A stretch of 64,000 bases of DNA, taken from Marivita sp. GTDB taxonomy: Bacteria; Pseudomonadota; Alphaproteobacteria; Rhodobacterales; Rhodobacteraceae. Positions 15,213 to 49,584 of the stretch are shown piece by piece. The stretch spans positions 62,001 through 126,000 of the forward strand of contig NZ_JALEGT010000035.1 in NCBI RefSeq assembly GCF_022763305.1, given 5' to 3'. Under the pieces are notes generated by a model that was not told the DNA's origin, did not search any database, and saw only the letters and a list, made by a program, of their open reading frames with translations. Every line of letters begins with the position of its first letter. The stretch's first letter is position 1. A program made the position numbers and the translations under genes.

Positions 15213-15478
15213 CAGCGCCTCCTGTTTCGCCATTTTGGGCATGTCTACCTGCGCCATAAGGCCAAATCGCGGCCACAGCGCCGCAAAATCAAGACAATCC
15301 CGCAAAAAATATCCTAAGACACACGAGAAATCCGGCGTTTGTCGAATTATCACCATGATTGAGTGGTGTATCCCCTGCGGAAAAGCCGCACAAAACGACG
15401 AGAGCAGCCAGTGAAACGCATCCGATTCCGTCCTGCCCCGCGCCAGGCCCATGGGCGCTGCCGCAGTCAGGCTGCGCT

Positions 15479-19744: not shown

Positions 19745-19757
19745 GGGGTTGAGGCGA

Positions 19758-23250: not shown

Positions 23251-24585
23251 CTATTGCGCGTTGCGCGGTGAAACGGACATCCCCGTCAGTGATGCCAGTG
23301 GCTTGGCCAAGAGCCCGATCACACCCACGATCAGGGCGATGAGAACGCCGAAGACAACCTTGATGCCTTTACCCTTCTTGCGGGACGGGGCGCCTTTGCC
23401 CGTGTCGAGGACGGGGACCGAGATCACCGGCCGGATGCCCAGCACGCGTTCCATCTGGCCCGCATTGCGGATCGGCGGATTGAGCAATTCCAGCACAAAG
23501 GCCACACCGAGTGCCAACATACCGCTGGCCACACCGCCCATCATCGCGACGGAGCGTTTGCTGCGCGACACCGGGAAGACCGGCACAATCGCCCGCTCCA
23601 GCACTTCGAAGCGCGCCAGTTGCCGCTGCTCCTCAAGGCTCTGGCTCATCTGGGCGTCGGCCTTGCGACGCGAGATGACGGTGAATTGTTCGTTCAGCTG
23701 GGTCAGTTCACGCTGCAGCGACGCGAGTTCACGTTCGACGGCTGGCGCGCGGGCCAGCAATGCGTTGATCTGCCCCACACGTGTCTCGATCAGCGTGATC
23801 TGATCCTGCAGCAAACCAACTTCGCGTTCGAGCGCTTCGGGACGTGTGCGGGCACTGTTGGACTCAAGGCTCAGAACCTGTTGGCGCAGCGTCAGAAGCG
23901 ACGCGTTCAACGTTGTCAGTTCGCCTTGGAGAACGGTGATGTTGGCGGGCAGCACCTCGGCATTGGCCGACTTGAACTGCGCGATCACGCTTTCTGCGGC
24001 GGCGATCTCTTCGCGAATGCGCGCTTCTTCGATGTTGAAGAACTCGACTTCCATCTGGGCACGGTCAACGCTGCGGCTGCGAGCCTCTTGCATGACCCGG
24101 TCAAGCATCTCGTTCGCCACGTCTGCTGCTTTTTGCGGGTCGCTCAAGTTGACGGTGATGACCATGCCGGACACCGATTGCACCGGCTGCCACGGCTCGC
24201 CGCCGCCGATGGCCTCGACGGTGACAGAATTGCGCATCGCGTCCAGGCGCATCGCAGCCGTCATGTTGGGGATGTCGTTGAACAGATCGTACTTGTCCAT
24301 CACCTCGACCAGCGAGCCACGGGACATCACGCGCTGTTCGATCAGCTGCACCGTACGGCGGGCATCGAGGCTGGCGCGGTTGTCGACCATCGCGCCCACG
24401 CTAGTGTTTGTGCCAGCGACCTGGGCGTCCTCGATCTGCACAACCGCAATGGCGTTGTAGACGGGGATCCGCGACAGGGCGACAGCCAAAGAAATGATGC
24501 ACCCGACAAAGGTGATCAGAATGATGAGACCAAGACGCCGCTTGATTGCGGAGAATACCTCTTCGAACGACTGAAAATACAGCAC
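23251..24585 (-). CDS. Polysaccharide chain-length determinant / copolymerase (Wzz/GumC family)
   Basis: A 444-residue inner-membrane protein starting at a GTG with GGAG eight bases upstream. TM1 is at about 17-37 (LGLIILITFVGCIISLAVAL), the periplasmic part holds a long coiled coil at about 165-335, and a second hydrophobic segment (MMGGVASGMLALGVAFVLEL) lies around 345-365. A third hydrophobic stretch near the C-terminus (VVFGVLIALIVGVIGLL) is not usual for Wzz proteins. These proteins set chain length or gate export of EPS together with the tyrosine kinase encoded convergently. It is preceded by the terminator of the PKS/NRPS operon, so it should have its own promoter in 24586-24694. Confidence 0.87.
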   Translation of the reverse strand: MLYFQSFEEVFSAIKRRLGLIILITFVGCIISLAVALSRIPVYNAIAVVQIEDAQVAGTNTSVGAMVDNRASLDARRTVQLIEQRVMSRGSLVEVMDKYDLFNDIPNMTAAMRLDAMRNSVTVEAIGGGEPWQPVQSVSGMVITVNLSDPQKAADVANEMLDRVMQEARSRSVDRAQMEVEFFNIEEARIREEIAAAESVIAQFKSANAEVLPANITVLQGELTTLNASLLTLRQQVLSLESNSARTRPEALEREVGLLQDQITLIETRVGQINALLARAPAVERELASLQRELTQLNEQFTVISRRKADAQMSQSLEEQRQLARFEVLERAIVPVFPVSRSKRSVAMMGGVASGMLALGVAFVLELLNPPIRNAGQMERVLGIRPVISVPVLDTGKGAPSRKKGKGIKVVFGVLIALIVGVIGLLAKPLASLTGMSVSPRNAQ

Positions 24586-24772: not shown

Positions 24773-25723
24773 TCACTCCTGCGGAATTCCGGTGATTGGC
24801 AGGCCCGAGACCACGTCCCAGACTGTCTGCTGCATCAGTTTGGCAAGCTCCGCCCCCGGCGCGTCGGCCGGTGTGCCATCCGCGCGGTCAAGCTGTGCGG
24901 GCAGGCCCAAGGGCGATCTCTGGTAGAGCACGGCATAATGGGTCAGCGCCACGAGGTAGGCCCCGAGATCGTTGATGTGGATGGGATCAATCGACCCATC
25001 TTCCATCCGCGCGAACAGATCTTCGCGAGAGGTGACATCATCAACGCCGGGACCCGCTTCGATCCTGCGGACCAGTTCCGCCATGACCCGCCCCGCCGGA
25101 ATCACGTGGATCGGTTGCGGTTCGCGACCAACCGCCATAGCACGGGCGAGCAGCACGCCTTCCCAATAGCGCGCGGGATCGGTGTCAAGACGTGTCAGCC
25201 AACCTTGCGGATCGTCCAGATCGTGCCAGCTTTCATAAAGGAACACGCGGATCTCGGGATTGCCCTTGCGGGCCTGCGAGACCCATTTTTCAAGATAGAC
25301 CGGCGCATCGAAATACTCGATCGCGGCTTCGATCTCGACCATTTCGGTCAGAACGAAAACATCGAACTCTCCGCTGTCCAACGCCTCTTTTGCATCTCTG
25401 TAGTGATCATGGGCGTTTTCGACATCAAAGCCCTGGATCGGTTCATCAGGTTCCCAATGGGTCTTGAGCGGCGTGCCCCATCCCAATTGGGACGCGTGCC
25501 TGTGACCCGCCATCTGCGCCAGCATGGCAGGCATGTCGCGCCCGACCAGAGAATGCCCGAGGTGAAACACCGACAGCGGGCCATCGGGTGGCGGCAAAGG
25601 TGTTTGGTAGACTGCAGCCAATTCCTCAGGTGAGAGGGTCTTGGGAAAGGCAAAATAAGCCCAAGCTGCCACCCCGCAGGCCAAGGCCGCCAATCCGGCA
25701 AGAACGAAGCGTGTCTCGGGCAT
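24773..25723 (-). CDS. SGNH-hydrolase-like exported or membrane-anchored protein
   Basis: A 316-residue protein. Residues 8-25 are hydrophobic (LAGLAALACGVAAWAYFAF), a signal anchor or signal peptide. FHLGHSLVGRD gives a GxS nucleophile candidate at S58, and DPIHINDLGAYL near residue 247 matches the DxxH block of SGNH/GDSL esterases. The intermediate Gly and Asn blocks are less clear, so esterase activity is a hypothesis. It starts only three bases after the NRPS stop and closes that operon. In EPS loci SGNH proteins often handle acetyl groups on sugars; here it could also act on the PKS/NRPS product. Confidence 0.65.
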   Translation of the reverse strand: MPETRFVLAGLAALACGVAAWAYFAFPKTLSPEELAAVYQTPLPPPDGPLSVFHLGHSLVGRDMPAMLAQMAGHRHASQLGWGTPLKTHWEPDEPIQGFDVENAHDHYRDAKEALDSGEFDVFVLTEMVEIEAAIEYFDAPVYLEKWVSQARKGNPEIRVFLYESWHDLDDPQGWLTRLDTDPARYWEGVLLARAMAVGREPQPIHVIPAGRVMAELVRRIEAGPGVDDVTSREDLFARMEDGSIDPIHINDLGAYLVALTHYAVLYQRSPLGLPAQLDRADGTPADAPGAELAKLMQQTVWDVVSGLPITGIPQE

Positions 25724-25726
25724 GGC

Positions 25727-28700
25727 TTATGCCTGCCGCCTAGCGCGCATGGCCCGACGACGTGCCATCGCATCGGCCCGCATCTGTGCGCGATCCGTCT
25801 GTTCGCTGCGCGTGATCGGCATGACCCGCGCGCTGTTTCGTCCTTCGGTGGACTGCCCGCCCAGTTGCGCCACCCGATCCGCAAGTGCCGAGAGCGTCGG
25901 GAACTGGAAAATATCCGTGATGGACAGCTTGGAAACATCCAGCCGGTCACGTACGGCGCGATGGGTTTGCACCGCCAGAAGCGAATGGCCGCCCAGATCG
26001 AAGAAATTGTCGTCGGGCAAGATGGACTGGACGCCCAGCACCTCGGTCCAGATCGCGGCGATGCGGGTGCGCAGCGCCTCGTCCGCCTGACCTGCGTTCT
26101 GCACCTGAGCGGCAGGCCGCGGTTTTGGTCTAACCGCAATGGAAGACGGAGCCGGCAGTGCCTTGCGGTCGATCTTCTGGTTGGGCGTAACAGGGAATCT
26201 GTCCAGTGTCATCACATGCGCGGGCACCATGTAATCGGGCAGTCGTTCGGACAGGAACGCCCTCAGGTCCTTGATGTCGATCTCGGTTGCCGCAGTGATA
26301 TAGGCGACGAGCCGGACATCGCCGGGCGTGTCTTCGCGGGCCAGAACAACAGCGTTCGTGATCCCCTCGAAAGTCTGAATCGCGCTTTCGATTTCACCCA
26401 GTTCGATGCGGAATCCACGCAGTTTGACCTGAGTGTCGGCCCGCCCAAGGAAATCGAGTTTTCCGTCGATCCGGCGCTGGACAAGATCGCCGGTGCGGTA
26501 CATGCGCCCTTCGGCAAAAGGATTGTCACGGAACCGATCCGCCGTCATCTCGTCGCGCTGCCAATAGCCCCGGGTCACGCCATCGCCACCGATCCACAGC
26601 TCTCCGGCTTCGCCGATCCCGACAGGCGCGTATTGCTCATCAAGAACATACAGCTGTGTATTTGCGATGGGGCGTCCGATGTTGACCGTGGCGACGTCGG
26701 CCGTAGCGATTTCCGAAGAGGACCATATTGTCGTTTCGGTCGGCCCGTACATGTTGGTGATGCGGGCGCCAGTCGCGCTGTTCAGGTCTGCCACCAACGC
26801 GCCGGGCAAAGCCTCTCCTCCGAGGAAGAGATGCTTGAGGCCGCGCAAGCTTGCCCTTGCGTCGTCATCCATCGCGATCATGCGGGCCATGGACGGTGTA
26901 CACTGCATATGGGTCACATCGTGGCGCGCCAGCATTGCCGCGATGGAGAAATCGTCATCCGCGTGATCGAGCGAGGGTGCACAGCGTCGAACCACCTCGG
27001 CCAGTGGTCTGAGACCAGAGAGAACCTGATCCGTTTCAATCCCGTAGTCGATGAGGCACGCGATTTCGGATACACCGATGGCCTGAAGCTGCTCCACCCG
27101 GGCCAACGCATCATTGATGGTGCCGAACAGACCGGACTCGTTGAAATAACGCTCGAACGCGAAATCAAGAATGCCTTCGAGATCGTCTTCGCTCAGATCG
27201 CCGAGATTAAGCTCGAACGCGTTTTTCACGCCCTCGGGTTTCTTGAATGCGGGGAACGCCCAGGCATATTGCTTGATGAGTCCTGCAGCGGAACGCAGGT
27301 AATCCTTCATCGGCTCACGGGCGATTTCGCGCGCCTGATCGCGCGTTTCCGCAAGACAGGTGTGCAGCATCAGTGTGACGGTAAAGTCATCCGGGTTGTG
27401 CCCCGCCTCGCGAAGCGCGTGCCGGTAGATCGTGATTTTGTCGGCCACTTCCTCGATCGACTGGCCCAACAGATGCGTCAGGACGTTGGCCCCATTGGCT
27501 CCGGCTTCGCGCCAGGTGTCGGGATTGCCCGCGGTGGTCACCCAGATGGGCAGGTCTTTGGACACGGGACGCGGTTGCGTGACAACCTCATGCATCTTCC
27601 CGTCCTTGCGCGGAAAGGCCACGGGTTCACCACGCCAGAGCTTGCGCACCTTGTCGATTGCATCGAACATCGCGGGCTTGTTGTCGGGCGGCGTGTTTTC
27701 GGGACGAAGGATGAAGTCATCCGGTTGCCACCCGCTGGCGATGGCAAGCCCGGCACGTCCGTTCGTCAGATTGTCGATCACCGCCCATTCCTCGGCGATG
27801 CGGGCCGGGTGATGCAGCGGAGCCACGCAACTGCCGGCACGGACGCCGATATTCTTTGTCACGCCAGCCACGGCAGCACCCGTGACCGACGGGTTAGGAT
27901 AGGGCCCCCCAAAGGCGTGGAAATGCCGTTCTGGCGTCCAGACCGCGCAGAAGCCATTTTCGTCAGCGAATTTCGCCCCTTCCAGAAGCAGGCGATATTT
28001 GTCGCGGCCAACGCCATCGTCATTGCCCCAGTAGTAGATGGAGAATGCCATCCCATCACTGTTGCGGCGCGCCGCTCCCCCCGAAATGACACCCCGTTTG
28101 CTGCTGCTGGGCAGAACCACACGGATACCACGTGCCATCGTATAGAAGAGCTCAAGCACGGAAATGTCGAAGCTGAGGCTGGTCACGGCAAGCCAAGCCG
28201 CATCGTCCCTGTCCGTCACGACGGCGTCCATGCCCGCGTAGAAGTTCATCACATTGCGATGTTCGACCATCACGCCCTTGGGCAGGCCTGTCGATCCGGA
28301 GGTGTAGATGACATAGGCCAGATTGTCGGCAGCAGCGACGGGTTCGGGATTGCTCGTACGTGCCGATGCGAGGCGGGGATCACGATCGATCACCAGCCGT
28401 TCGGCCGAGGTTTCGGGCAAGTCGTCCTGCAGAGCGTGTTCCGTGATGACAACGCCCGCAGCACTGTCAGTGAGGTAATGCGCCAGCCGGTCCTTGGGAT
28501 ATTCCGGGTCCAGCGGCAGATAGGCCGCACCGGCTTTGAGGATGCCGAGCGCCCCGGCGATCAGGTCCGGGCCGCGCGCGCAATGCAGGCCGACCATCGT
28601 GTCCGGCTGCACCCCAATGCTGCGCAGCGTATGCGCCACGCGATTGGCATGTTCATTCAGCGTGGCATAGGTGATCGACATGTTCTCGAACACCAGCGCC

Positions 28701-30301
28701 ACGGCATCCGGCGTACGCGCCACCTGAGCTTCGAACGCGGCATGCATGGTGGCTGGACCGTCAAGCCGCAGAGCCGTCTTGTTGAACTCGGTCAGTACCG
28801 CATCGCGTTCCTCTGGCGGAAGGATCGAAAGATCGGTCGCAGCGGTGCCATTACGAAGCTGTTCCGTGATCCAATTCAGACGGCGGATCAGTATTTGCGC
28901 GGCATCCGGTGCAATCCGACCTTCATCCACGTGAACGAGGACCACGTCATCAGTGAGGTCAAAGGTGATCGCAGCGCCGGGAATCGGCCCGGCACCTAGC
29001 GAGATTGCCAGATCGGGTGTCCCAGTCCAGGACAGGGCTGGCTCTCGCAGGGCAAGATCGGTCGCAATTCCTGCATGAGGCGTGGGCAGCTGGTTCTCAA
29101 GCACTTCGACAGACACTGGAACCCATGGCTGCACCAACCCGAAGCGCGCGTCGCGCATGAGGCTTGGGTCTGACAGAGCGACAAAAGACCCGGGTTCTGA
29201 TGCCAACCGTTTTGCCAGACAGGCAAGCGCGGCGCCGATCAGGTCCGCTGGCAGGTCGGTGTGGCTGGTGCGGATCGACGGCGCGCCAGATTGCGTGAAG
29301 GACAACGTGATGGGAACCGCGCCAACCAAGGTGCGACGCCAGCGCGCTTCGGCCTTTGCAACAGTACGCATGGTCTGGTCGATTTCGGCCACGTCTTCCT
29401 TGGCCAATGAGGGCAGCACAGTACCCAGCGTCACGTGATCCGATGGGCGGGCTGGCTTGCCATCGCTCAGCATCAATTTACCCAGACGCAGGGCTGCATC
29501 GGCAAAGGCAATCGTGATCGACTCGTCATCGATCGCGATCACCGCCCCTTGAGCAGCGCTGCTCTCTACGCGTTCGGCACTGGCGACATGGACGAGAGTG
29601 TCGCCAAGGCGCAGCTTTGGCGTGCAGATCGGATTGCGGTAGGTGCCATGATCCAAACCCCGGACAAGCCGAAGCACGGTGTCCGCCGGTACGTCGAACC
29701 GCAGGAGACCAAAACCTTCGGGCCGGTCGGTCAGAGCGTGATAGCTTCGTTGACTGATGTCCTGTGCGCGGCGATTGGGCAGGCCGTGCGTGAGTTCGTG
29801 CAAGAGATCAGGGAAGCTGGTCAAACCAGCTTCGTAGCATTTCGTGTTCAGCGTCAGCGCAGTGTCCCGAGGCGAGATGTCGATCGCCGCCTGGACAAGG
29901 ATGTCGCCGGTATCGACGCCGTCATCGATCAGATGCCATGTGATGCCGTGTGTGGTATCTCCGTCGATCAGCGCCCAGACCGGCGCATTCAAGCCAGCCC
30001 GTTTCGGCAGCGGACCGTCGTGGAAGTTGACCGCTCCCTTTTTGCCAAGCTCCAGCACGTCGCGTGGCAATATTTTGAGATTGGCGATGCTCAGCACCCA
30101 GTCAACCGCAAGCCCCGACAAACGTGCGGACAGATCAGGCCCATGCCCCTCGGAGCGGATGCCGCGATCCCGCGCCCAAGCCGCAAGGTCGGGACTGTCG
30201 GTGACAAGCGCCGCGAGCCCATGTCCCTGCGACAGCAGCGTTTCCGCGCAATGGCGGGTCAGGCTTTCGTCACCGATGATGATGCAGTCGAACTGGGTCA
30301 T
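25727..30301 (-). CDS. NRPS: formyltransferase - degenerate C region - adenylation domain split by luciferase-like monooxygenase - carrier domain
   Basis: A 1524-residue assembly-line protein. Residues 1-200 are a formyltransferase domain with N92, H94 and D130 (VNFHDGPLPKRAG, DDGVDTGDIL) as the catalytic set, followed by a formyltransferase C-terminal-like part to about 280. Residues 285-515 resemble the end of a condensation domain (LSILPPEERDAVLTEFNKTA) but no HHxxxDG motif is found. Adenylation core motifs follow: YTSGSTGLPKG near 664, SFDISVLELFY near 714. A complete luciferase-like flavin monooxygenase is inserted at about 751-1095 (MAFSIYYWGND, SGWQPDDF), after which adenylation resumes (NMYGPTETTIW, YRTGDLV, NQKIDRKAL). 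The carrier domain has S1440 in LGGHSLLAV. No thioesterase is present. It starts 3 bases after the GT2 gene with GGAG upstream. Confidence 0.93.
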   Translation of the reverse strand: MTQFDCIIIGDESLTRHCAETLLSQGHGLAALVTDSPDLAAWARDRGIRSEGHGPDLSARLSGLAVDWVLSIANLKILPRDVLELGKKGAVNFHDGPLPKRAGLNAPVWALIDGDTTHGITWHLIDDGVDTGDILVQAAIDISPRDTALTLNTKCYEAGLTSFPDLLHELTHGLPNRRAQDISQRSYHALTDRPEGFGLLRFDVPADTVLRLVRGLDHGTYRNPICTPKLRLGDTLVHVASAERVESSAAQGAVIAIDDESITIAFADAALRLGKLMLSDGKPARPSDHVTLGTVLPSLAKEDVAEIDQTMRTVAKAEARWRRTLVGAVPITLSFTQSGAPSIRTSHTDLPADLIGAALACLAKRLASEPGSFVALSDPSLMRDARFGLVQPWVPVSVEVLENQLPTPHAGIATDLALREPALSWTGTPDLAISLGAGPIPGAAITFDLTDDVVLVHVDEGRIAPDAAQILIRRLNWITEQLRNGTAATDLSILPPEERDAVLTEFNKTALRLDGPATMHAAFEAQVARTPDAVALVFENMSITYATLNEHANRVAHTLRSIGVQPDTMVGLHCARGPDLIAGALGILKAGAAYLPLDPEYPKDRLAHYLTDSAAGVVITEHALQDDLPETSAERLVIDRDPRLASARTSNPEPVAAADNLAYVIYTSGSTGLPKGVMVEHRNVMNFYAGMDAVVTDRDDAAWLAVTSLSFDISVLELFYTMARGIRVVLPSSSKRGVISGGAARRNSDGMAFSIYYWGNDDGVGRDKYRLLLEGAKFADENGFCAVWTPERHFHAFGGPYPNPSVTGAAVAGVTKNIGVRAGSCVAPLHHPARIAEEWAVIDNLTNGRAGLAIASGWQPDDFILRPENTPPDNKPAMFDAIDKVRKLWRGEPVAFPRKDGKMHEVVTQPRPVSKDLPIWVTTAGNPDTWREAGANGANVLTHLLGQSIEEVADKITIYRHALREAGHNPDDFTVTLMLHTCLAETRDQAREIAREPMKDYLRSAAGLIKQYAWAFPAFKKPEGVKNAFELNLGDLSEDDLEGILDFAFERYFNESGLFGTINDALARVEQLQAIGVSEIACLIDYGIETDQVLSGLRPLAEVVRRCAPSLDHADDDFSIAAMLARHDVTHMQCTPSMARMIAMDDDARASLRGLKHLFLGGEALPGALVADLNSATGARITNMYGPTETTIWSSSEIATADVATVNIGRPIANTQLYVLDEQYAPVGIGEAGELWIGGDGVTRGYWQRDEMTADRFRDNPFAEGRMYRTGDLVQRRIDGKLDFLGRADTQVKLRGFRIELGEIESAIQTFEGITNAVVLAREDTPGDVRLVAYITAATEIDIKDLRAFLSERLPDYMVPAHVMTLDRFPVTPNQKIDRKALPAPSSIAVRPKPRPAAQVQNAGQADEALRTRIAAIWTEVLGVQSILPDDNFFDLGGHSLLAVQTHRAVRDRLDVSKLSITDIFQFPTLSALADRVAQLGGQSTEGRNSARVMPITRSEQTDRAQMRADAMARRRAMRARRQA

Positions 30302-30304
30302 GAC

Positions 30305-31324
30305 TCACTCCGCGCTGGTTTGCAGGGCCGTGTCGGACGGCAGACCAACGACACGGATTGCGGACTCCGGCGTCGGCCGCAGAAGCGCCTTCAGGTCATG
30401 TGAGACCATATCCCGAAGAAAGCATTTCGCGCCGGTGATCGGCTTGCCCTCGATCCGCCTGCGCACCCGCCAGAGCGATGTGCCCAGAACATTCAACGCT
30501 GTCGCCGCGATGGCGTAAGCCCGGTTGTGGTTCTTGCTGAAATAGTACCAGCGGCTTTGATACCAATAAGACGGAGTGCGCGTCCAACGCCCCATTCCGG
30601 TCGACACCGATCCTATGTGGCAGACGCGGCTTTCGCGGACAAAATGCACCTGATGCCCCGCACGTTGCGCGCGAAGGCAAAAATCCGTTTCCTCGAAGTA
30701 GAGGAAAAAGGTTTCGTCAAACAGGCCGATCTCTGCGAGCACGCTGGTGCGGACAAGCATGGAGGCACCAAGGATCCAACCAACCGACCCAGACTGCTCC
30801 GGCGTGTGCATCGGCAGCACATATTTCTTGAGGAGGCGGGTCACAGGCCCGAAGCGCACCGCTCCCTCGAACTCGGAAGCCAGGCTGGGAAAACGAAATG
30901 CGCTGCAATGATCCTCGCCCGACTCGCCGTAGACATTGCTGCCGGCGATGGCCACCTCCGGATGCGTGTCCAGATATGCCACCAGCGCGTCGATCGCATC
31001 GAGTTCGACACGGGCATCCGGGTTCAGGATGTAGACCAAGTCAGCTGCCGGGCAGATGTCGAGTCCTGCGCGAATGCCGAAATTGTTGCCCGCTCCAAAC
31101 CCACCGTTGCGACCGGATTGAAGAACCTGCACGTCAAGATGGGCCGGCCATTCCGCGTCACGGACAAGGGCGCTCATGGACTTAAAGGACTCATCGGGAG
31201 AGTCGTTGTCGACAAGAACGATTGCGCCGCAGACGGATGCCATGGCTGCCGCGGCCGACTTGGCCGCCTGGACAGCCAGATCGGCAGTCTTGTAGTTCAG
31301 AATGACAACAACGATTTCGGTCAT
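30305..31324 (-). CDS. Glycosyltransferase family 2, between PKS and NRPS
   Basis: From the ATG at 31324 (GGAG eight bases upstream) the protein has 339 residues; a GTG at 31333 that overlaps the PKS stop is the alternative. The GT-A domain begins EIVVVILNYKTADLAV, with VDNDSPDES and the DXD-type LNPDARVELDAID. LGASMLVRTSVLAEIGLFDE and FFLYFEETDFCLRAQRAG are the acceptor-side blocks typical of rhamnosyltransferase-like GT2 enzymes. Its position, 5 bases after the PKS and 3 bases before the NRPS, implies co-translation with both, so it is a candidate tailoring enzyme for the PKS/NRPS product, although an EPS role is equally possible. Confidence 0.88.
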   Translation of the reverse strand: MTEIVVVILNYKTADLAVQAAKSAAAAMASVCGAIVLVDNDSPDESFKSMSALVRDAEWPAHLDVQVLQSGRNGGFGAGNNFGIRAGLDICPAADLVYILNPDARVELDAIDALVAYLDTHPEVAIAGSNVYGESGEDHCSAFRFPSLASEFEGAVRFGPVTRLLKKYVLPMHTPEQSGSVGWILGASMLVRTSVLAEIGLFDETFFLYFEETDFCLRAQRAGHQVHFVRESRVCHIGSVSTGMGRWTRTPSYWYQSRWYYFSKNHNRAYAIAATALNVLGTSLWRVRRRIEGKPITGAKCFLRDMVSHDLKALLRPTPESAIRVVGLPSDTALQTSAE

Positions 31325-31329
31325 GCAGG

Positions 31330-34300
31330 TCACTCCGCCGCCTCTGTTGCCTTGAAGGACAAGACACGCCCCTTGCCGCCGACAGAGGCTTCTGTCGTGG
31401 TGATGACATTGCGCAGATAGCTGGCCAGCACCCGCACATTGGGCTCCAGCACCATGCTGTCATGATCGCCCGGCACCTCGAACACCTCGATCTGAGGCAC
31501 GTACTGACCCCAGTCGTTGTCGTCGAACAGATAGGCCCGTTCGTGGTTGACCAGTCGGCCACCGGACACCGTCCAGGTGGCATGCAGAGGCGGCCGGAAC
31601 AGAGCGATGCGACCAGACCAGCGCTTGACCTCATAGGTCGAAACCGCCTGCAGGAAGGCCTGTTCGATTTCGGCATTATGGAAGCTGTGTGTGGCCTTAG
31701 TTTCCTCGGAGGCACGTCGCTTGGACAGTTCCCAGTCGATCCGGTTGCGCAACCAGATCACCGGATAGGCAAGACCTTTGCGGCGGGTTTCCTGCAATTG
31801 GATCAACAAGCGGTCCTTCCGGGCCAGCGGGCGGCGCTGAGGCAGCGGTGTATCCAGCAAAACGATCAGCGCGACCTCGTCGCCCATCTTTTCAAGCTGG
31901 TGGGCGATCTCGTAGGCGGTGATGCCACCCCCCGAGAAACCACCCACATAATATGGCCCTGTGGGCTGCACCTGTTTCATCTCGGCGATGTAGTCGCGCG
32001 CGGCATCCCTGATGGAGCTGTGGGGTGTTTCGTCGCCGTAGAGGCCACGGGCCTGAAGACCGTAGAATGGCCGATCCGACCCGAGCAGCTGGGCCAGATG
32101 GCGCAGGTTCAGCACGTTTCCGAACATCCCTGCGACCAGGAAGAACGGCGACTTCGGCCCACCTTCACCATCATGCATCGCAACGATGTGCTTGAAGCGA
32201 CGGGTTTGAGGTTTGGGCTTCTTGTCTTTCACCTCGGCGGTGTCGGACAAGCCCGTCCGCTCCTTGATGAGCGACGCACAGGCCCGGATGGTCGGCGCTT
32301 CGAACAGGATCGAGATCGGGAAATCGACGTTGTACGTCTTGCGCACCTTGGCAAAGAGGCGCACCGCGATCAGCGAGTGCCCCCCGAGATCGAAGAAACT
32401 GTCCTCGACGCCGACATTCTGGACACCCAAAAGCTCTTCCCAGATTCCGACGAGCGTGCGTTCGATTTCCGTCTCCGGCGCGACATAGTCTCCGGCGAGT
32501 TGCGGACGATCGAATTTCTGACCTTCAGATTTCGGATCGTTGGCGATCATCGCCTGTTCAATGAGCGCCTGCATGTCGAGCGAGGACACATAGACCTGTG
32601 GTGCACCGCGACCCAGAGCGCGCAGGAATGCCTCGGCTCCGGTGTCGGAGGTGATCCCTTGGGACAGGTTGTGCTGAAACCGCTCTTCGGCAGGGGACAA
32701 GGGCTGCGTCGATTTCCGGAAATCGGCCGGTTCGAATTCGGTCTTTGCCGCTTTGACGGGTGTGGACAGCGATGACATGTCGCTCAGTCGTTTGATCGAG
32801 AAGTCCTCGATCTCCATGCAGACAGTGCCGTCGGGCATGGCGATGGAGATATCGAACGACGCGGTTTCGTCGTCATTCCGGTTGCTGCCCGAAGACCGCA
32901 CCCAGCTGACGATCCGTTCGGGAAGCGGGTGATAGACATGAACCCGGTCGTAGGACACGGGCACCCAAAGCCTGTCGGCGCGGTAGCCATCGATCAATTC
33001 CATGGCCCATCCGGTGGCGATGTCGAGCAATCCGGGATGGAAATGCCAACGCCTGTCTTCTTGTGCGACCGCGTTCAACGACAGATCAGCAATCCCTTCC
33101 CGGTCGCCATAGGCGCAGCTGTCCAGAACCTTCCAATGCGTCCCGAAGGCGAGCTGTGTTTCCTGGGCAGCTGCGAGTTTTGTGCCATTGCTGGCCGTCC
33201 GCGCAACCCCGCAGCGCTTGCGGATTGCATCGATGTCGATGGGTTTGGGCTGGGCCTCGGGAATGAGCGACAGATCGGCCGTCACAATGGGAACAAAGCC
33301 TGCCTGTCCATCCAGATGGCAGCTTCCCAGTACATCCATATGATAGCCGTCATCCCGCCGGGACAGACGCAGGCGAATGTCGCGCTCTCCGCCATCGGGC
33401 ACATGCAAGGGCCGCAGGAACGTCATGTTGCGGATCGCAAAGCTGCTGGTCTCACCCTGACCGCGAAGCGCTTTGGACGCCAGCGTCAGATAGCCGGCAC
33501 CGGGGAACAGCGCATCCCCCTGTTTGGTTCTGTGTTGATCGATGAACCAGTCCTCGGTGGTGTACCGCGCTTCGAAAATCCGATTTCCGGCCGGGTCGAA
33601 CCCCGTCTTGTCGAGCAGTGGCAGATCGACAGGATCAAAGGCAACCGGGTCGGTTTCGCCGATCCGGTCCGCCAGGGCAGTCGCAGCCATGCCAACATCG
33701 GCCCAGATACCCCAGTTGATCGCCATGACGCGAGTCGCGTCGCCACGGCGCGCATGCGCATAGGCATTGAGGTACTCGTTCGCCGCAACATAGTCGATCT
33801 GACCGGCAGGCGCGGTCTGAGTCGAGGACGACGCAAAAAGCACGATGAAATCGGTCGATCCATCGGGGAACAGCTGATCCAGAACCTTGGTGCCGTGAAT
33901 CTTGGAGGAAAACACCTTTTCGATGGAGCCGGTCGACTTGGCAAGAAGCGGTGCATCCTCCATCAAGCCCGCGGCGTGGATCACACCGTCGATCCGCCCG
34001 TGGCGGGCCACGGTTGCCTCGACGACGCCCTGCATCTCTGGAAGATTGCAGATGTCCGCCGCGTGCGGCTCGACCTTGGCACCGAGGGCTTCAAGTTCCT
34101 GCACGGCGCGGATGCGTCGCGCCAGTTTGTCTTGCGGCGCATGACGTTGCAGGTAGTGAGCCCACACCTCGCGTTTTGGCAAGTTACCTCTGGCTGTCAG
34201 CACCAGAGTGCACCCCAGTTCAGCCAGTGACCTGGCAACGGTCAGGCCAATCCCACCGAAGCCACCCGTGATCAGATAGGTGCCACCGGGCCGAACCGGC

Positions 34301-37300
34301 GACTCGGTCACTGGTTTCAATGGGGTCTTCTGCAGCGCCTGCTCATACCGTCGCCCCGACCGCAGAAGAGCAATCGTCGCTGACGGATCGGCAATCATGT
34401 CTTCGATGACCTGATCGACGAGATCCTGCCAGTCGCGTTGGTCAGCTCTGGCATCCGTGCGACGGGCGAACAGCCGACGCGTCGGAGCGGCGGGCAGAAC
34501 AAGGTCCAGCGAAGATACGGTCAGCCCGGGGATTTCCCGAGGGATCACGCGGACGGGACCGGACATGATGGCCTTTTCCGGCGAAACAAGCCGTTCATCG
34601 CCAAAGGCGGCGGCACCGTTGGTAAAGACCGAGATCTGCGTTGGCCGAGGCAGAGTTTCATCCGCAATCGCCTGGGCGATGAACATCAGCGAATAGAACC
34701 CGTGTTCCTGCATGCGGTGGAAAAAGCTTGATCCTGGGCGATGGCTGTTGTCCTTGGTCACGCCCCAGAAATGCGCGATACGGCTGGGCACCAATCGTCG
34801 AGACAGCATATCGCGGAACAGAAGGTCATAGCCTTCGCGCCCCCGCTCCGGCGCCAGAACATAGGTCGTATCGTCAAGCCGGGCAAAGCTGTCGCCGGGC
34901 CAGACCTCGACAATCGAATGACCCGCCGCGCGCAGACGTTTGGCGGCAGCCGACGCGACACCGGCATCGTCCATGAAGACCAGCCAGCTTTGCAAATCAG
35001 CCTTGTCGAGATCGGTGCGGACATCGACCGGAGTTGCGGCGTATTTCGGACGCCAGACCGGAGTCCACCCCCAGTTTTCGATCCCCTCGATTCGGGTCAG
35101 GAAGCTGGACACCGTCTGGTTCTGCGGCTGGCCCGGCTCGATATAATAGCGGGAGCGCTGGAAAGCATAGGTGGGCAAGGGCACGCGGTTGCGACGGGCC
35201 TCCCCCCAAATCTGATCCCAATCGACGTGACCGCCCAGCGCCCAGACACGGCCCAACACCTCGAGCATGTGGCGATCATCCTCGATCTCTTCGTCGGGAT
35301 GCCGCAGGCTCGACAGGACCTGGTTGGCCTGGATGCCTTCACATTGACGGGCCAGCACCGACAGCGCCTTGCCCGGTCCAACTTCGAGGAAGATGCGGTT
35401 CTGACGATCTGACAGGGTGTCGAGGCATTTGGCAAAATTGACTGTGCCCCGGAGATGCGACACCCAATAGTCCGGGTTGGTCGCCTGTTCCGCCGTCATC
35501 ATTTCGCCAGTGCGGTTGGATGTGATGGGGATCTGCGGCGGGGTGAGCTCGATCTGTTCCAGATACGCTTGGAAACGGTCAAGGATCGGATCGAGCATGC
35601 GCGAATGGGCTCCAATATCAATGGGGATGCGGGTAAAGTCGACATCCCGGCGCTTGAGTTCAGCCTCAAGGGTCATGAGTGCCCCACTTGGCCCCGATGC
35701 AACACTGAGGCCCGGACTGTTGATCGCACCCAGATCAAGCTTTTCGCCCAGCAGCGGCTTCAGCTCCTCCGCGGGCAAGGCAACCGAGATCATGCCGCCC
35801 TTTTCGACTGTATCGAACAGGGTGCCACGCAGATGCACGAGCCCAATGCAATCTTCGAACGACATGACACCGGCGACGCAGGCCGCCGTGTTTTCACCCA
35901 TCGAGTGTCCCGCAAGCGCGCTGGGAAGCAGACCCCAGCTCATCCAGAGCTGAGCCAGCGCGTATTCCACGATCATGATCAGCGGAAGCTGCAGCGATGG
36001 CTGACGCAGGGCCTCTGCCGCGTCGGTGTCTTTGCCCGGTTCAGGAAGCCACAGCGCACGGATGTCGCGCGTTTCGAGTGTTTGCAGATGCGCAAGGCCG
36101 CGATCCATCCATTCGGCAAAGACCGGCTCGGTCTCGTAGAGATCGCGCCCCATGCCGACATATTGCGCGCCACCGCCCGGGAACAGAAACACCGTCTCGG
36201 GACGGGACAGCGCATCATGCGAATGCACCCGACGCGCATCCGATCCGTCAAGGAGCTTTGCCGCGTCTTCGTGCGTGCGGGCAACCACGATGCGGCGCTT
36301 TTCGAACGCCCGGCGTCCGGTCTTGAGGGTCCAGGCCACATCGGCCAGTGGTTGATCCGGATTGGCCCGCAAATGCGCCGCCAGTTGCGCTGCGTTGGCA
36401 TCAAGCGCCTGCTTGGTCCGCCCCGAGACCGTGATGATCTGGAATGGCCAGTCGCTTGCTTCCGAGGCTTGCCGTTCGGGTGCTTCTTCCAGGACCACAT
36501 GCGCATTGGTGCCACCCACCCCGAGCGAGTTGACCCCGGCGCGGCGTGGATGGTCACGGCGCGGCCAATCGGTCAGCCGGTCATTCACACGGAAGGGCGA
36601 ATGTTCGAAATCAATGGTCGGGTTCGGCTTTTCGAAGCCAAGGCTGGGCGGCATCTGACGATGGTGCAAAGCCATGGATGCCTTGATCAGACTGGCCACA
36701 CCTGCCGCAGTGTCGAGATGGCCGATATTGGTCTTGACCGATCCGATCCGGCAATGTCCCACAGCGTCACTGGTCGCCTGAAAGGCCTGTGTCAGCGCAG
36801 CGACTTCGATCGGGTCACCCAGATAGGTGCCCGTTCCGTGACATTCGACATAGTCGATCGTGTCGGCGGTCACGCCGGCGATGGCCTGAGCCTCGGCAAT
36901 CGCGTCGGCCTGCCCCTCGACCGAGGGAGCAAGATATCCCGCCTTTGCCGCACCATCGTTGTTGACCGCGCTGCCCTTGATGACTGTCCAGATATGATCC
37001 CCATCCGCGATGGCATCGGCCAGCCGACGCAGGACAACGACACCGGCTCCCGACCCAAAGACGGTGCCCTTGGCGCGGTGATCGAAGGCATGGCATTGGC
37101 CATCTGGCGACAGGATCTCGTTTTCCTTGTAGAGGTAGCCCTGCCCCTGTGGCAGTTCGATCGTGACCCCACCTGCCAGGGCGAGATCGCATTCGCCGTT
37201 CAGCAAGGATTGGCAGGCGAAGTGTGTAGCGACGAGCGAGGTGGAACAGGCTGTCTGCACATTGACCGAAGGACCGTCCAGATCGAACACATGGCTGACG

Positions 37301-37812
37301 CGTGTCGTCAGGAAATCCTTGTCATTGCCGGTATGCCGCAACAGGAACATGCCGGTGTTGTCGACAAGGTCCGGGTTCGAACAGAGATTGAAATAGAAAT
37401 AGCTGCCCATGCCGCAGCCACCGAAGACGCCGATCCGCCCGGCCTGGCCTTCGGGCATGTGCCCTGCATTTTCCAGCGCTTCCCACGCACATTCGAGGAA
37501 CTGGCGATGCTGCGGGTCCATGATTGCAGCATCTTTGGGAGACAGGCCGAAAAAGTCGGCATCGAAGTGATCGAACCGGTCCAGCCGCGCCGCGTAGGGC
37601 ACATAATCCCGGTGGCGCATCAGACCAGGAGGGACGCCGGCCTCGGCCAGTTCGTCTTCGGTCAGGCGATGAATCGACGAGACACCATCACGGAGGTTGC
37701 GCCAGTATTGCGCAAGCGTTGCGGCACCCGGAAGATGCGCCGACATGCCGACGATGGCGATATCCCCATCCGCACCGAGAGATGGCGCGGTTGTTTCATG
37801 TGTCATGGTCAT
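31330..37812 (-). CDS. Type I polyketide synthase, KS-AT-KR-DH-ACP-TE
   Basis: A 2160-residue multidomain synthase. KS at about 14-440 with C189 in TACSTS and the two His motifs (CHGTGTYLGDP, KTNIGHLD). AT at about 537-860 with S637 in GHSMGE; the specificity segment reads DIGAHS rather than HAFH or YASH. About 890-1160 is the structural KR part, and the KR proper lies at 1168-1370 (ITGGFGGIG, Y1341 in DYVAANEY). DH follows at about 1395-1680 (IDQHRTKQGDALFPG, HPGLLDIATG). The ACP has S1813 in LGGHSLIAV, and the thioesterase at about 1890-2140 has S1960 in GFSGGG and a C-terminal PGDHDSM. No ER or methyltransferase is seen. The ATG at 37806 has better spacing from AGGG than the one at 37812. 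Confidence 0.94.
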   Translation of the reverse strand: MTMTHETTAPSLGADGDIAIVGMSAHLPGAATLAQYWRNLRDGVSSIHRLTEDELAEAGVPPGLMRHRDYVPYAARLDRFDHFDADFFGLSPKDAAIMDPQHRQFLECAWEALENAGHMPEGQAGRIGVFGGCGMGSYFYFNLCSNPDLVDNTGMFLLRHTGNDKDFLTTRVSHVFDLDGPSVNVQTACSTSLVATHFACQSLLNGECDLALAGGVTIELPQGQGYLYKENEILSPDGQCHAFDHRAKGTVFGSGAGVVVLRRLADAIADGDHIWTVIKGSAVNNDGAAKAGYLAPSVEGQADAIAEAQAIAGVTADTIDYVECHGTGTYLGDPIEVAALTQAFQATSDAVGHCRIGSVKTNIGHLDTAAGVASLIKASMALHHRQMPPSLGFEKPNPTIDFEHSPFRVNDRLTDWPRRDHPRRAGVNSLGVGGTNAHVVLEEAPERQASEASDWPFQIITVSGRTKQALDANAAQLAAHLRANPDQPLADVAWTLKTGRRAFEKRRIVVARTHEDAAKLLDGSDARRVHSHDALSRPETVFLFPGGGAQYVGMGRDLYETEPVFAEWMDRGLAHLQTLETRDIRALWLPEPGKDTDAAEALRQPSLQLPLIMIVEYALAQLWMSWGLLPSALAGHSMGENTAACVAGVMSFEDCIGLVHLRGTLFDTVEKGGMISVALPAEELKPLLGEKLDLGAINSPGLSVASGPSGALMTLEAELKRRDVDFTRIPIDIGAHSRMLDPILDRFQAYLEQIELTPPQIPITSNRTGEMMTAEQATNPDYWVSHLRGTVNFAKCLDTLSDRQNRIFLEVGPGKALSVLARQCEGIQANQVLSSLRHPDEEIEDDRHMLEVLGRVWALGGHVDWDQIWGEARRNRVPLPTYAFQRSRYYIEPGQPQNQTVSSFLTRIEGIENWGWTPVWRPKYAATPVDVRTDLDKADLQSWLVFMDDAGVASAAAKRLRAAGHSIVEVWPGDSFARLDDTTYVLAPERGREGYDLLFRDMLSRRLVPSRIAHFWGVTKDNSHRPGSSFFHRMQEHGFYSLMFIAQAIADETLPRPTQISVFTNGAAAFGDERLVSPEKAIMSGPVRVIPREIPGLTVSSLDLVLPAAPTRRLFARRTDARADQRDWQDLVDQVIEDMIADPSATIALLRSGRRYEQALQKTPLKPVTESPVRPGGTYLITGGFGGIGLTVARSLAELGCTLVLTARGNLPKREVWAHYLQRHAPQDKLARRIRAVQELEALGAKVEPHAADICNLPEMQGVVEATVARHGRIDGVIHAAGLMEDAPLLAKSTGSIEKVFSSKIHGTKVLDQLFPDGSTDFIVLFASSSTQTAPAGQIDYVAANEYLNAYAHARRGDATRVMAINWGIWADVGMAATALADRIGETDPVAFDPVDLPLLDKTGFDPAGNRIFEARYTTEDWFIDQHRTKQGDALFPGAGYLTLASKALRGQGETSSFAIRNMTFLRPLHVPDGGERDIRLRLSRRDDGYHMDVLGSCHLDGQAGFVPIVTADLSLIPEAQPKPIDIDAIRKRCGVARTASNGTKLAAAQETQLAFGTHWKVLDSCAYGDREGIADLSLNAVAQEDRRWHFHPGLLDIATGWAMELIDGYRADRLWVPVSYDRVHVYHPLPERIVSWVRSSGSNRNDDETASFDISIAMPDGTVCMEIEDFSIKRLSDMSSLSTPVKAAKTEFEPADFRKSTQPLSPAEERFQHNLSQGITSDTGAEAFLRALGRGAPQVYVSSLDMQALIEQAMIANDPKSEGQKFDRPQLAGDYVAPETEIERTLVGIWEELLGVQNVGVEDSFFDLGGHSLIAVRLFAKVRKTYNVDFPISILFEAPTIRACASLIKERTGLSDTAEVKDKKPKPQTRRFKHIVAMHDGEGGPKSPFFLVAGMFGNVLNLRHLAQLLGSDRPFYGLQARGLYGDETPHSSIRDAARDYIAEMKQVQPTGPYYVGGFSGGGITAYEIAHQLEKMGDEVALIVLLDTPLPQRRPLARKDRLLIQLQETRRKGLAYPVIWLRNRIDWELSKRRASEETKATHSFHNAEIEQAFLQAVSTYEVKRWSGRIALFRPPLHATWTVSGGRLVNHERAYLFDDNDWGQYVPQIEVFEVPGDHDSMVLEPNVRVLASYLRNVITTTEASVGGKGRVLSFKATEAAE

Positions 37813-37912: not shown

Positions 37913-39271
37913 TCACATTGAGGCAAGCGCAAGAACGTCATCCAGATTAAAGGAAATGGCGACGGCGATCAGTCCGGCACCGATGCAGGCAAAGGCCATG
38001 TCATGCTTGGCATCCCAGGCTTTCGCGTTTTGGGCCAACCACACGACAAAGGGATAGGCCGCCAAACCAGCAAGGCCCTGGCCGACAAGAGCCCCGAACA
38101 ATCCGCCGAGTTGCAGGCCGATATAAAGGCACCCAAGGGTCAGAACTGCCCGCGCAATGGACAAGACAAAGAACCTGCGCGAGTCGCCCGTGGCGAGTGC
38201 GGCATGTTCATACGTCAGGACTAGGAGCTGCGGCATCTGCATCGCGGCGATCAGCACGACCACGGGGCCGGCCATCAGGTATCTTGGATCGTAGAGCAGA
38301 TCGATCAGCAGAACCCCGGCAATCGACACACCACCCGTCAGCGCCATCATTCCGGACGTCAGGACGACCCGCATCTTGCGGATGCTGCGAAAGTTCTCGG
38401 CACTCTGCGAGGGCGGCCGTTCCCGATAGAGCGGGATCAGCACCTTGCGCGTCATCATGGTGCCCATCAACAGCGGAAAACTCGCGATGAAAAAGCCGAT
38501 GTTATAAATGCCGAACTGTTCCAGCGTCAGGAACTTGCCGATCAGCAGCTTGTCGCCCTGCATGTAGAGAAAGCCGCAGATTGTGCTCAGGAAAATCCAC
38601 TTGCCAAACCCGATCAGTTCGCTCGCGGCCTCGCGCTCCCAGTTGAAGCGGTTTCGCTCTCCGGGAAGAAAGATGTTGTAGGCGATGAGCACAAGAAAAG
38701 ACGAGATGATCCCGCTGATCACAAGCGCCCAGACCGAGTGAAGCTGCCAGGCAAGAAGGACCGTGATGACAATCGTGATCGCCTGCACACCCAGCTCGAT
38801 ACCCGTCATGCGCCCAACCATGAGGTGCCGATTGGCCGTTTCGAGCCGCGTCGGATTGAACCCCGCAATGAACAGGGTCACGCCAGCACACGGCAGGATC
38901 CACGCCAGCAGAGGTTCCCCGTACAGGTTCGCCACGGGGATCGCCATGAGGCAGGCAACCGCCCAAAGAAGCGTGCCGCGGATGACCTGGATCGTCCACG
39001 CAGTGTCGAGAAACTTCTGATCGTCGCCGCGCTTGGACTGCATGATCGACGCACCGACGCCGACATCCGAGAACATCGCAAGCCCCTGCATCAGGACACT
39101 GACCAGCGCCATCATCCCGAAGACTTCCGGGAAAAGAAGGCGCGTCAGGATCAGGTTGGAGGCAAGGCGCAGAAACTGGCCCGACGCATACCCGCCAAGC
39201 GTGAACATGGAGCTGCGCATGAACCGCGCGTTGAGCGACGTGCCCCGAAATCTCGACATAATGGCTTGCAT
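37913..39271 (-). CDS. Oligosaccharide flippase (Wzx/PST family)
   Basis: A 452-residue membrane protein with 12 or more hydrophobic segments. The N-terminus (FTLGGYASGQFLRLASNLIL, then LLFPEVFGMMALVSVL) and GASIMQSKRGDD loop are typical of polysaccharide-specific transporters that flip undecaprenyl-linked repeat units. The ATG at 39271 overlaps the stop of the upstream GT2 by one base and has GAGGG upstream. A 100-base gap separates it from the PKS, so the PKS set may have its own promoter but lies in the same direction. It is the only obvious membrane exporter near the PKS/NRPS genes. Confidence 0.9.
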   Translation of the reverse strand: MQAIMSRFRGTSLNARFMRSSMFTLGGYASGQFLRLASNLILTRLLFPEVFGMMALVSVLMQGLAMFSDVGVGASIMQSKRGDDQKFLDTAWTIQVIRGTLLWAVACLMAIPVANLYGEPLLAWILPCAGVTLFIAGFNPTRLETANRHLMVGRMTGIELGVQAITIVITVLLAWQLHSVWALVISGIISSFLVLIAYNIFLPGERNRFNWEREAASELIGFGKWIFLSTICGFLYMQGDKLLIGKFLTLEQFGIYNIGFFIASFPLLMGTMMTRKVLIPLYRERPPSQSAENFRSIRKMRVVLTSGMMALTGGVSIAGVLLIDLLYDPRYLMAGPVVVLIAAMQMPQLLVLTYEHAALATGDSRRFFVLSIARAVLTLGCLYIGLQLGGLFGALVGQGLAGLAAYPFVVWLAQNAKAWDAKHDMAFACIGAGLIAVAISFNLDDVLALASM

Positions 39272-40143
39272 CACCGCCCTCTACTCCAACCCGTTGCCTT
39301 GCTGCCAGTCAGGCGAACGGCAAGTGCAACTCCTGAATATACGGCAAAACCGAGCGGATCCTTTAGGGTCAGCTTCATCTTGTCGCGAGCCGGAAAGGGC
39401 GGCTTGTCGTCATTGTCGAGCAATTCCGGATAATATTCCTGGATTTCATCGACACCGGCATTCTGGCGCCTGCGGACCCGAACAAGGTTTCTCCACCCTT
39501 CAACCAGAGGCCAGGTACAGGGGGCGTCGACGGCGACCCGTTCTTCCGGGCGAAAGCTCAGCCGGACGAAGGTGTCGTCGGAAATGATGTTGGGAAACGC
39601 CCCCCATCGCATGCGCCCGGCGGCATTCACGGCGAAGAGTCCCGCACCGGGTACACCGTGTTTCATGAAGGGCACCTGCGCGTAGATGCGGGCATAGGCC
39701 CGCGTAGTCCAGGTCCGCGCCGGCGCAAGCTCGAGGCGGCCACTGGCATAGCGCGGTTCCGGTTGGTCCAACGCGTCGAAAAGCTTGGCAATCAGGGGTT
39801 TCGATACCTCGACATCCGCATCGAGATAGACCCGGATGGGGGCGCGGGCGATGTGATCCCCTGCATTCAGCGCCCCCAGCTTGCCACCTTCCTTGCGATC
39901 GAGCACATGCAGAATGCGCCCTGTCGCTTGGAACAGGGGCTTCATTTCAAGTGCCTTCGCGGTCGTCCGATCCGTGCTTCCGTTGGATATGACGATCGTT
40001 TCGAAAGGCGCTGCATGTTCCCAGGTGCTGTGCAGCACGGCACGCAGGCAGTCTCCGATCAGGGCCTCCTCGTTGGATGCCGGGATCAGAACGCTCAGGA
40101 CAGGCATGGCGTCATTTGTGAGACCGCGGGCATTCGGCGGCAT
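39271..40143 (-). CDS. Glycosyltransferase family 2 (EPS locus)
   Basis: A 290-residue GT-A enzyme: VLSVLIPASNEEALIGDCL, VISNGSTDRT and the DXD-type VYLDADVEVSKP. The start is uncertain: the ATG at 40143 has AGGA about ten bases upstream, a GTG lies at 40152 and another ATG at 40107 where the family sequence begins. A hydrophobic stretch near the C-terminus (FAVYSGVALAVRL) suggests membrane contact. It is coupled to the flippase gene (TGATG). It probably adds a sugar to the EPS unit that the flippase moves. Confidence 0.87.
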   Translation of the reverse strand: MPPNARGLTNDAMPVLSVLIPASNEEALIGDCLRAVLHSTWEHAAPFETIVISNGSTDRTTAKALEMKPLFQATGRILHVLDRKEGGKLGALNAGDHIARAPIRVYLDADVEVSKPLIAKLFDALDQPEPRYASGRLELAPARTWTTRAYARIYAQVPFMKHGVPGAGLFAVNAAGRMRWGAFPNIISDDTFVRLSFRPEERVAVDAPCTWPLVEGWRNLVRVRRRQNAGVDEIQEYYPELLDNDDKPPFPARDKMKLTLKDPLGFAVYSGVALAVRLTGSKATGWSRGR

Positions 40144-40237
40144 AAAAGGCACTTCCTATTCGTCCAGAGACCTGCGGATCACGGGATCCGTTGCCATAAG
40201 ATATTGTCAAATTTAAGGAAAGCCGGACAGCGCGGGG

Positions 40238-44557: not shown

Positions 44558-44590
44558 AGGGAAAGGTCCTCTTTGTGGATGAGAGTCAGC

Positions 44591-46692: not shown

Positions 46693-46703
46693 GGTATGTT
46701 CCT

Positions 46704-48152: not shown

Positions 48153-48178
48153 GGCAAGCTCCTTCGATCAGGGGATGA

Positions 48179-49480: not shown

Positions 49481-49535
49481 GGAACGCCTTTCTGGTGTGC
49501 TGAGATGGGCTCGACACATCAGTAGGGCGTTCGGT

Positions 49536-49551
49536 TTAACGGTCCCCTAAC
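49536..49551. promoter_or_regulatory. CtrA-like site upstream of flgE
   Basis: TTAA-N7-CTAAC, one mismatch from the CtrA consensus TTAA-N7-TTAAC, lies 56 bases before the flgE start. CtrA controls flagellar genes in many alphaproteobacteria, including Rhodobacterales. Confidence 0.4.
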
Positions 49552-49584
49552 GGCTAAAACTTGACCTAGTTTTGCCCATCCGGC

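Follow-up and report, generated by a model that had tools for sequence, protein, structure and literature searches.

A probable hybrid assembly line with a formyltransferase-led starter protein and an inserted monooxygenase in an exopolysaccharide locus of Marivita sp.

In a 64,000-nt stretch of Marivita sp. DNA (the window; on contig C66 of the 4.4-Mb host genome), we analyzed a gene pair encoding a nonribosomal peptide synthetase (NRPS) and a type I polyketide synthase (PKS). On balance, we favor the reading that the two proteins form a hybrid line within an exopolysaccharide locus, in which glycine would be loaded, formylated, alpha-hydroxylated and extended to give a C4 acyl unit for the polysaccharide. 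The NRPS (25727..30301, reverse strand; 1524 aa) consists of a formyltransferase (FT) domain, the C-terminal lobe of a condensation domain (C-lobe), a predicted glycine adenylation (A) domain with an inserted monooxygenase (MOX), and a peptidyl carrier protein (PCP). The PKS (31330..37812, reverse strand; 2160 aa) carries ketosynthase (KS), acyltransferase (AT), ketoreductase (KR), dehydratase (DH), acyl carrier protein (ACP) and thioesterase (TE) domains. An earlier note made from the DNA alone had described an NRPS with an N-terminal FT, a terminal carrier and no TE, and a PKS of the order KS-AT-KR-DH-ACP-TE; domain searches bore all of this out, the PKS catalytic residues are present, and both proteins are confirmed as real and as carrying every domain listed. 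That note overlooked the MOX, the C-lobe, a glycosyltransferase family 2 (GT2) gene between the pair, and the polysaccharide context.

The starter protein carries a monooxygenase inside its adenylation domain

The NRPS gave Pfam matches to Formyl_trans_N (E 2.7e-20), AMP-binding (8e-90) and PP-binding (3.2e-14), and no TE match was found in the protein. The A domain is split, on the reverse strand, into a first part (28100..28735) that includes the A4 motif FDISVLEL and a second part (26156..26986) that includes motifs A5 (NMYGPTETT) to A10. Between A4 and A5 lies the MOX (residues 753-1103; 26993..28045, reverse strand), an FMN-dependent luciferase-like monooxygenase (LLM) that scores 477.2 bits against TIGR04020, the MupA/Atu3671 family of such enzymes (cut-off 244.45), and matches Pfam Bac_luciferase at E 5.2e-47. 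Its best match in the PDB is PuwE (6ket, E 2.7e-101). The PCP (25871..26065, reverse strand) follows with the motif LGGHSL. In an alignment of 20 proteins (the window NRPS and 19 relatives), the MOX is the most conserved of the six NRPS stretches compared: 117 of its 351 positions are invariant, against 38/300 in the FT, 2/215 in the C-lobe, 54/220 and 69/282 in the first and second parts of the A domain, and 20/81 in the PCP.

The specificity code of the window A domain, mapped by motif onto GrsA numbering, is DILQFGMIWK. The pattern DILQ-x-G-[M/L]-[I/V]-W-K recurs in 21/21 proteins (window and 20 relatives), with D, I, L, Q, G, W and K fixed throughout, M322 and I330 each present in 20/21, and position 299 variable; three relatives (L027, L034, L040) have exactly DILQLGMIWK. 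A survey of A domains gives DILQLGMIWK as common to four glycine A domains with a MOX, and every MOX module that it observed sat in a glycine domain (PMC12283262). Since the window code is one residue off this reported code, glycine is the predicted substrate. Both the glycine code and the position of the MOX between A4 and A5 agree with a glycine A domain having an integrated MOX of the myxothiazol type.

A formyltransferase and a condensation-domain remnant precede the adenylation domain

The FT domain (residues 1-300; 29402..30301, reverse strand) was identified with Pfam and matches Fmt and ArnA in fold. Residues N92, H94 and D130, corresponding to the catalytic Asn-His-Asp triad of Fmt, are invariant in all 20 aligned proteins. 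A further relative, L026, was excluded from this alignment, since the main reading frame does not include its FT-like stretch, which is encoded upstream. With an N-terminal FT carrying Asn-His-Asp, then A and PCP, the protein has the architecture of a formyltransferase starter module, which supports the assignment made before. A separate FT-led NRPS without a MOX match was seen in Sinorhizobium meliloti pSymA (L065); the record's gene table, which is incomplete, shows no genes for that stretch.

Between the FT and A domains, residues 300-515, which match nothing in Pfam up to E 10, might have been a featureless linker. This was rejected, as profile comparison by hhalign identified a condensation-domain C-lobe (residues ~313-520; 28742..29365, reverse strand) that aligns with the second half of condensation domains over 218 columns (probability 98.5%, E 3.1e-15). 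The reference consisted of 48 condensation domains from fetched loci, and three column-shuffled controls scored 0.0-0.1%. The HHxxxDG motif of the catalytic first half is absent from the NRPS, and the whole genome gave no match to the condensation domain (PF00668) at E 0.001. A missing catalytic half is as expected of a starter module, and the full upstream condensation domain that takes over a growing chain in myxothiazol-type modules was not found, the C-lobe being all that is present. An AlphaFold model of the FT and C-lobe, built from 14 sequences, has a mean pLDDT of 86; in a fold search with it, the FT part matched Fmt and ArnA, and the best 50 matches listed were all formyltransferase-fold proteins, with none for the C-lobe.

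The polyketide synthase module is intact and would act after the starter protein

All six PKS domains lie on the reverse strand and contain their catalytic residues: KS (36484..37764; C189, H325, H365), AT (35371..36192; S637 in GHSMGE, H736; malonyl is assumed as its substrate), KR (33697..34284; Y1341, N1345), DH (32776..33621; H1427, D1597), ACP (32272..32457; S1813) and TE (31423..32142; S1960, D1987 and, at its end, H2117). The matches have E-values of 3e-68 (KS), 2.4e-39 (AT), 6.2e-44 (KR), 1.6e-16 (DH), 8.4e-15 (PP-binding) and 1e-18 (TE). Inspected by eye in the window PKS and 18 relatives, with the truncated L028 and L032 left out, these residues are kept in 19/19 rows for KS, AT, KR, DH and ACP and in 18/19 for TE. 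A module with intact KS, AT, ACP and TE stands beside the NRPS, as in a hybrid NRPS-PKS line ending in a TE. The earlier proposal of one reducing and dehydrating extension with TE release is also supported, a single round being assumed.

The NRPS was proposed to act before the PKS, against the gene order, and two observations speak for this. First, among 31 relative loci, five (L024, L025, L026, L081, L082) have the NRPS gene directly ahead of the PKS gene on one strand, and their co-linearity with NRPS-then-PKS synthesis supports the order; the window arrangement PKS-GT2-NRPS on one strand occurs in 23/31, and the two genes are on opposite strands in 3/31 (L022, L027, L066). Second, a PDB search with the KS alone returned, after five top chains with neutral names, the colibactin chains ClbC and ClbK and chains named hybrid or mixed NRPS/PKS at ranks 6-10, ahead of PikA (from 18), EryA (from 19), Pks13 (from 34) and mycocerosic acid synthase (from 39), with two further chains called NRPS/PKS at 41 and 57. 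This ranking, being no tree, is only suggestive; in our KS reference set, 1/33 was clearly NRPS-fed, too few for a tree.

The gene pair lies in a polysaccharide locus

The GT2 gene (30305..31333, reverse strand) is situated between the NRPS and PKS genes, 3 bp from the former and overlapping the latter by 4 bp. Another 3 bp after the NRPS gene is a gene (24773..25723, reverse strand) for a 316-aa protein resembling SGNH-type acyl esterases/transferases, and the SGNH-like, NRPS, GT2 and PKS genes make a tight four-gene block on one strand. Around the block are genes for a Wzx-like polysaccharide flippase (37913..39274, reverse), a second GT2 (39271..40152, reverse), a Wzz/chain-length determinant (23251..24585, reverse) and an ATPase like polysaccharide tyrosine autokinases (22003..23247, forward), whose best NCBIfam matches are below cut-offs. 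The rest of the locus (14427..21866) encodes WecG/TagA on the reverse strand and, on the forward strand, a Gfo/Idh oxidoreductase, an epimerase, a family 4 glycosyltransferase (GT4), a GT2 and a Gfo/Idh-epimerase fusion. In grouping the flippase and the chain-length determinant with several glycosyltransferases, the neighborhood resembles a Wzx/Wzy-type exopolysaccharide locus; a scan of window proteins, covering a subset of the open reading frames (ORFs), identified no Wzy polymerase. As to the dedicated exporter that the earlier note had missed in the window, the flippase is present there.

In tblastn searches at E 1e-10, at least one homolog of the window WecG, GT4, GT2, Wzz or Wzx was found in 28/31 relative loci and in 0/22 comparison loci. 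Annotated neighbors in the fetched plasmid stretches also point to a polysaccharide context. In the Methylobacterium locus L024, 3 of the 10 ORFs scanned have matches: one to an O-antigen ligase family, one to a glycosyltransferase, and one to a Wzz-kinase, the last slightly short of the Wzz cut-off.

The SGNH-like protein starts with a hydrophobic stretch (by eye), and a homolog occurs in 15/31 relative loci by the same tblastn threshold. Its S58, D246 and H249 are invariant in 20 rows, and its model (pLDDT 90) gave fold matches, all of them weak (at best E 7.7e-4, with a query-length TM-score of 0.27), to carbohydrate esterases and, lower, to the periplasmic domain of a lipopolysaccharide (LPS) acetyltransferase (6se1) and OatA catalytic domains. 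The assignment was made because of these weak fold matches together with the invariant Ser/Asp/His, and the protein is a candidate enzyme for the transfer or removal of an acyl group on the polymer. In L079, L080 and L087, a second, divergent SGNH gene stands in tandem with the first beside the NRPS gene.

As noted before, the window holds no phosphopantetheinyl transferase (PPTase), and none is found on the whole of contig C66. We rejected this as a problem for the line, since the genome has two ACPS-family matches elsewhere, on contigs C81 and C73; the latter, in a 250-aa ORF, looks EntD/Sfp-like by its motif. L022 and L027 have an annotated PPTase next to the pair, and L023 has one at a distance of 9.4 kb; these are three of the six annotated plasmid stretches with the pair. 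MbtH gave four genome matches, all below cut-off.

Three further features of the window were recorded. The Gfo/Idh/MocA oxidoreductase-NAD-dependent epimerase fusion (19749-21866, forward) is kept at 90-95% identity in nine close relatives (L028-L035, L039). A 557-aa protein (40238-41911, reverse), secreted-looking by eye and with no Pfam match, has homologs of 56-69% identity over at least 500 residues in six close relatives. Near the locus, at 43691-50397 (reverse), lie flagellar genes (MotA, FlgI, flagellin-like, FlgK, FlgE-like, MotB). An Rfam search returned 0 matches at gathering scores.

Distribution of the pair

The 31 relative loci comprise 8 plasmid stretches, 13 stretches from assembled contigs and 10 genome loci, and those with the pair belong to Rhodobacterales, Hyphomicrobiales and a Deinococcus plasmid. 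Among 385 genomes sampled from the class, 11 (the host genome included) have a MOX match at E 1e-60. FT, MOX and PKS are together in seven of these 11 (the window; L077-L082) and apart in three (L083-L085), the remaining contig being too short to tell. Two of the latter three, L083 and L084, come from genomes of ~1.5 Mb in the same class and contain a ~1250-aa open frame in which the LLM is N-terminal. By eye, the LLM of L083 precedes KS and methyltransferase-like parts, and long PKS genes flank the frame. Both loci show a large PKS capacity for a very small genome.

Proposed pathway and its alternatives

The domains, motifs and synteny were observed, and from them we infer every chemical step and the acceptor. 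Glycine, as the code suggests, would be loaded on the starter carrier, and the FT, with its catalytic residues intact, would cap the glycine amine. By analogy with the modules for myxothiazol, melithiazole and solanimycin, the MOX would hydroxylate the glycine alpha-carbon. The PKS would then add one malonate (extender and single round both assumed), reduce and dehydrate, and the TE would release or transfer a C4 acyl unit. This unit would be 4-formamido-4-hydroxybut-2-enoyl, or 4-oxobut-2-enoyl after loss of formamide. The C4 unit probably serves the polysaccharide: the acceptor would be the polymer or a precursor, with the neighboring GT2 and the SGNH-like protein as candidate partners.

Several points weigh against this pathway. 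First, regarding the chemistry, the introduction of the A-domain survey puts such insertions between A8 and A9, whereas here the MOX lies between A4 and A5, and the survey's text, as excerpted, does not name the four domains that share DILQLGMIWK (PMC12283262). That the MOX is conserved points to constraint and does not tell which reaction it catalyzes; the carbinolamide might not last until the PKS step; and the PKS of the Deinococcus locus L026 has no TE visible in the alignment. Second, regarding the comparisons, the 31 loci include many close kin of the window and are no independent sample, and the 22-locus control is weak because it consists of distant bacteria, only 5 of which hold an LLM and 1 an FT (tblastn E 1e-10). 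The pair itself is patchy, TIGR04020 scoring over its cut-off in 13/17 genomes of the genus. Third, the pair in L025, L081 and L082 is not accompanied by homologs of the window glycosyltransferases, flippase or Wzz. Of these, L082 has genes like those for sugar-nucleotide enzymes, all under curated cut-offs. In L081, a scan of 5 of the 9 neighboring ORFs gave transport and metabolic genes and none for polysaccharide, so the pair can occur outside a polysaccharide locus.

These three loci speak for a diffusible secondary metabolite, a signal or a chelator, to which the polysaccharide genes would be merely adjacent. The fabrubactin siderophores may offer a precedent in their alpha-hydroxycarboxylates, for which the flavin monooxygenase FbnE is the proposed maker (PMC12971057). 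With polysaccharide homologs in nearly all relative loci (28/31) and the GT2 gene inserted between NRPS and PKS in most of them (23/31), we consider a diffusible product possible but doubtful. L081 also has a thiamine pyrophosphate (TPP) enzyme and a glutathione S-transferase-like gene upstream of the NRPS/PKS pair (L081:4657-17968). The idea that the TPP enzyme is a glyoxylate carboligase was weakened by its scores: the best match is a general TPP subfamily at 879 bits, while the carboligase model, with a cut-off of 791, gives 257 bits.

A second alternative is that the formyl group is a disposable handle: an N-formyl-alpha-hydroxyglycyl thioester would fall apart into formamide and glyoxylyl-S-PCP, which the PKS would turn into 4-oxobut-2-enoyl, a reactive enal. 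This overlaps with the favored pathway, which allows for either fate. In the known cleavage, however, the amide set free is the foregoing chain, and hydrolysis takes off the glyoxyl part, and in solanimycin B the hydroxyglycine is kept (PMC10204066). An enal would also have to be tolerated in some way, and we regard the handle as unlikely. Still more speculative is a full form of the same idea, in which formylation makes of glycine an amide that the MOX can hydroxylate, formamide leaves, and glyoxylyl-S-PCP primes the PKS for a 4-oxobutenoyl group that acts as a reactive cross-linking or adhesive decoration on the secreted polysaccharide. No assembly line is known to us to supply a polysaccharide with an enal, though no literature search was aimed at this.

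Were the MOX inactive, glycine would simply be formylated and 4-formamidocrotonic acid released, close to the 4-formamido-2-alkenoic acid that the earlier note had predicted. The FT and PKS residues are intact as this would need, and a formylglycine start has a parallel in the F-A(Gly) loading module proposed for the conglobatin line (PMC4504003). However, the MOX is the most conserved stretch of the starter protein and far over its family cut-off, whereas an idle domain is expected to drift, which makes this reading improbable. A 4-formamido-2-alkenoate is not supported as the product, because the conserved MOX would have to be idle; the glycine code and the MOX in the A domain instead predict an alpha-oxidized unit. 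Least probable is iterative use of the PKS to give a longer polyene from a formylglycine-derived starter, since, although the sequence of a single module with KR, DH and TE does not forbid repeated use, hybrid NRPS/PKS chains precede Pks13 and mycocerosic acid synthase in the KS ranking, with the limits given above on what that ranking can say.

Should the favored pathway hold, acyl groups made on assembly lines would be part of marine biofilm polymers, and so short a line would be a tractable place to learn whether a starter hydroxyglycine is kept or cleaved.

Comparison with known systems

Each domain type is already known; what appears to be new is the combination of an FT starter with a glycine A-MOX domain in a polysaccharide locus, which we did not find in the open-access full-text literature, subscription papers being outside the scope. 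The best whole-protein PDB match of the NRPS is LgrA, the linear gramicidin synthetase (6mfz and 5es5 among the matches). LgrA initiates with the same order of formyltransferase, A and PCP; it differs in that it is not known to have a C-lobe remnant or a MOX, and its next partner is a C domain. In the myxothiazol and melithiazole lines, the glycine modules are MtaG and MelG. As here, the A domain of those glycine modules is interrupted between a4 and a5 by a flavin monooxygenase; it hydroxylates glycine, and the resulting carbinolamide is cleaved in myxothiazol and melithiazole and kept in solanimycin B (PMC10204066). Unlike them, the module described here starts the line, has an FT and a C-lobe remnant, and feeds a PKS. 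SolF of the solanimycin line likewise has a flavin monooxygenase in a glycine module, with the alpha-hydroxyglycine kept in solanimycin B, but the insertion is between a8 and a9, and the module is mid-chain in an antifungal line of Dickeya solani (PMC10204066).

PuwE, the closest PDB sequence match of the MOX, is proposed to give, together with an aminotransferase, a 3-amino-2-hydroxy acyl chain; it differs in lying between PKS and NRPS modules, not inside an A domain, and in acting on a fatty acyl chain (PMC4219810). Among roseobacters, a possible parallel is in Phaeobacter inhibens, whose PKS (Inhi_1972) and NRPS (Inhi_1974) are separated by a single locus number; the excerpted source names no product for them (PMC4062626). 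Finally, CongA of the conglobatin line resembles the present protein in that its loading module, which precedes a PKS, combines an F domain with a glycine A domain, its formylglycine starter having been modeled on OzmO of the oxazolomycin line (PMC4504003). The excerpts of that paper mention no A-domain monooxygenase for CongA, and the conglobatin line has an oxazole and four extension modules (PMC4504003), whereas the Marivita line has a single extension with KR, DH and TE.

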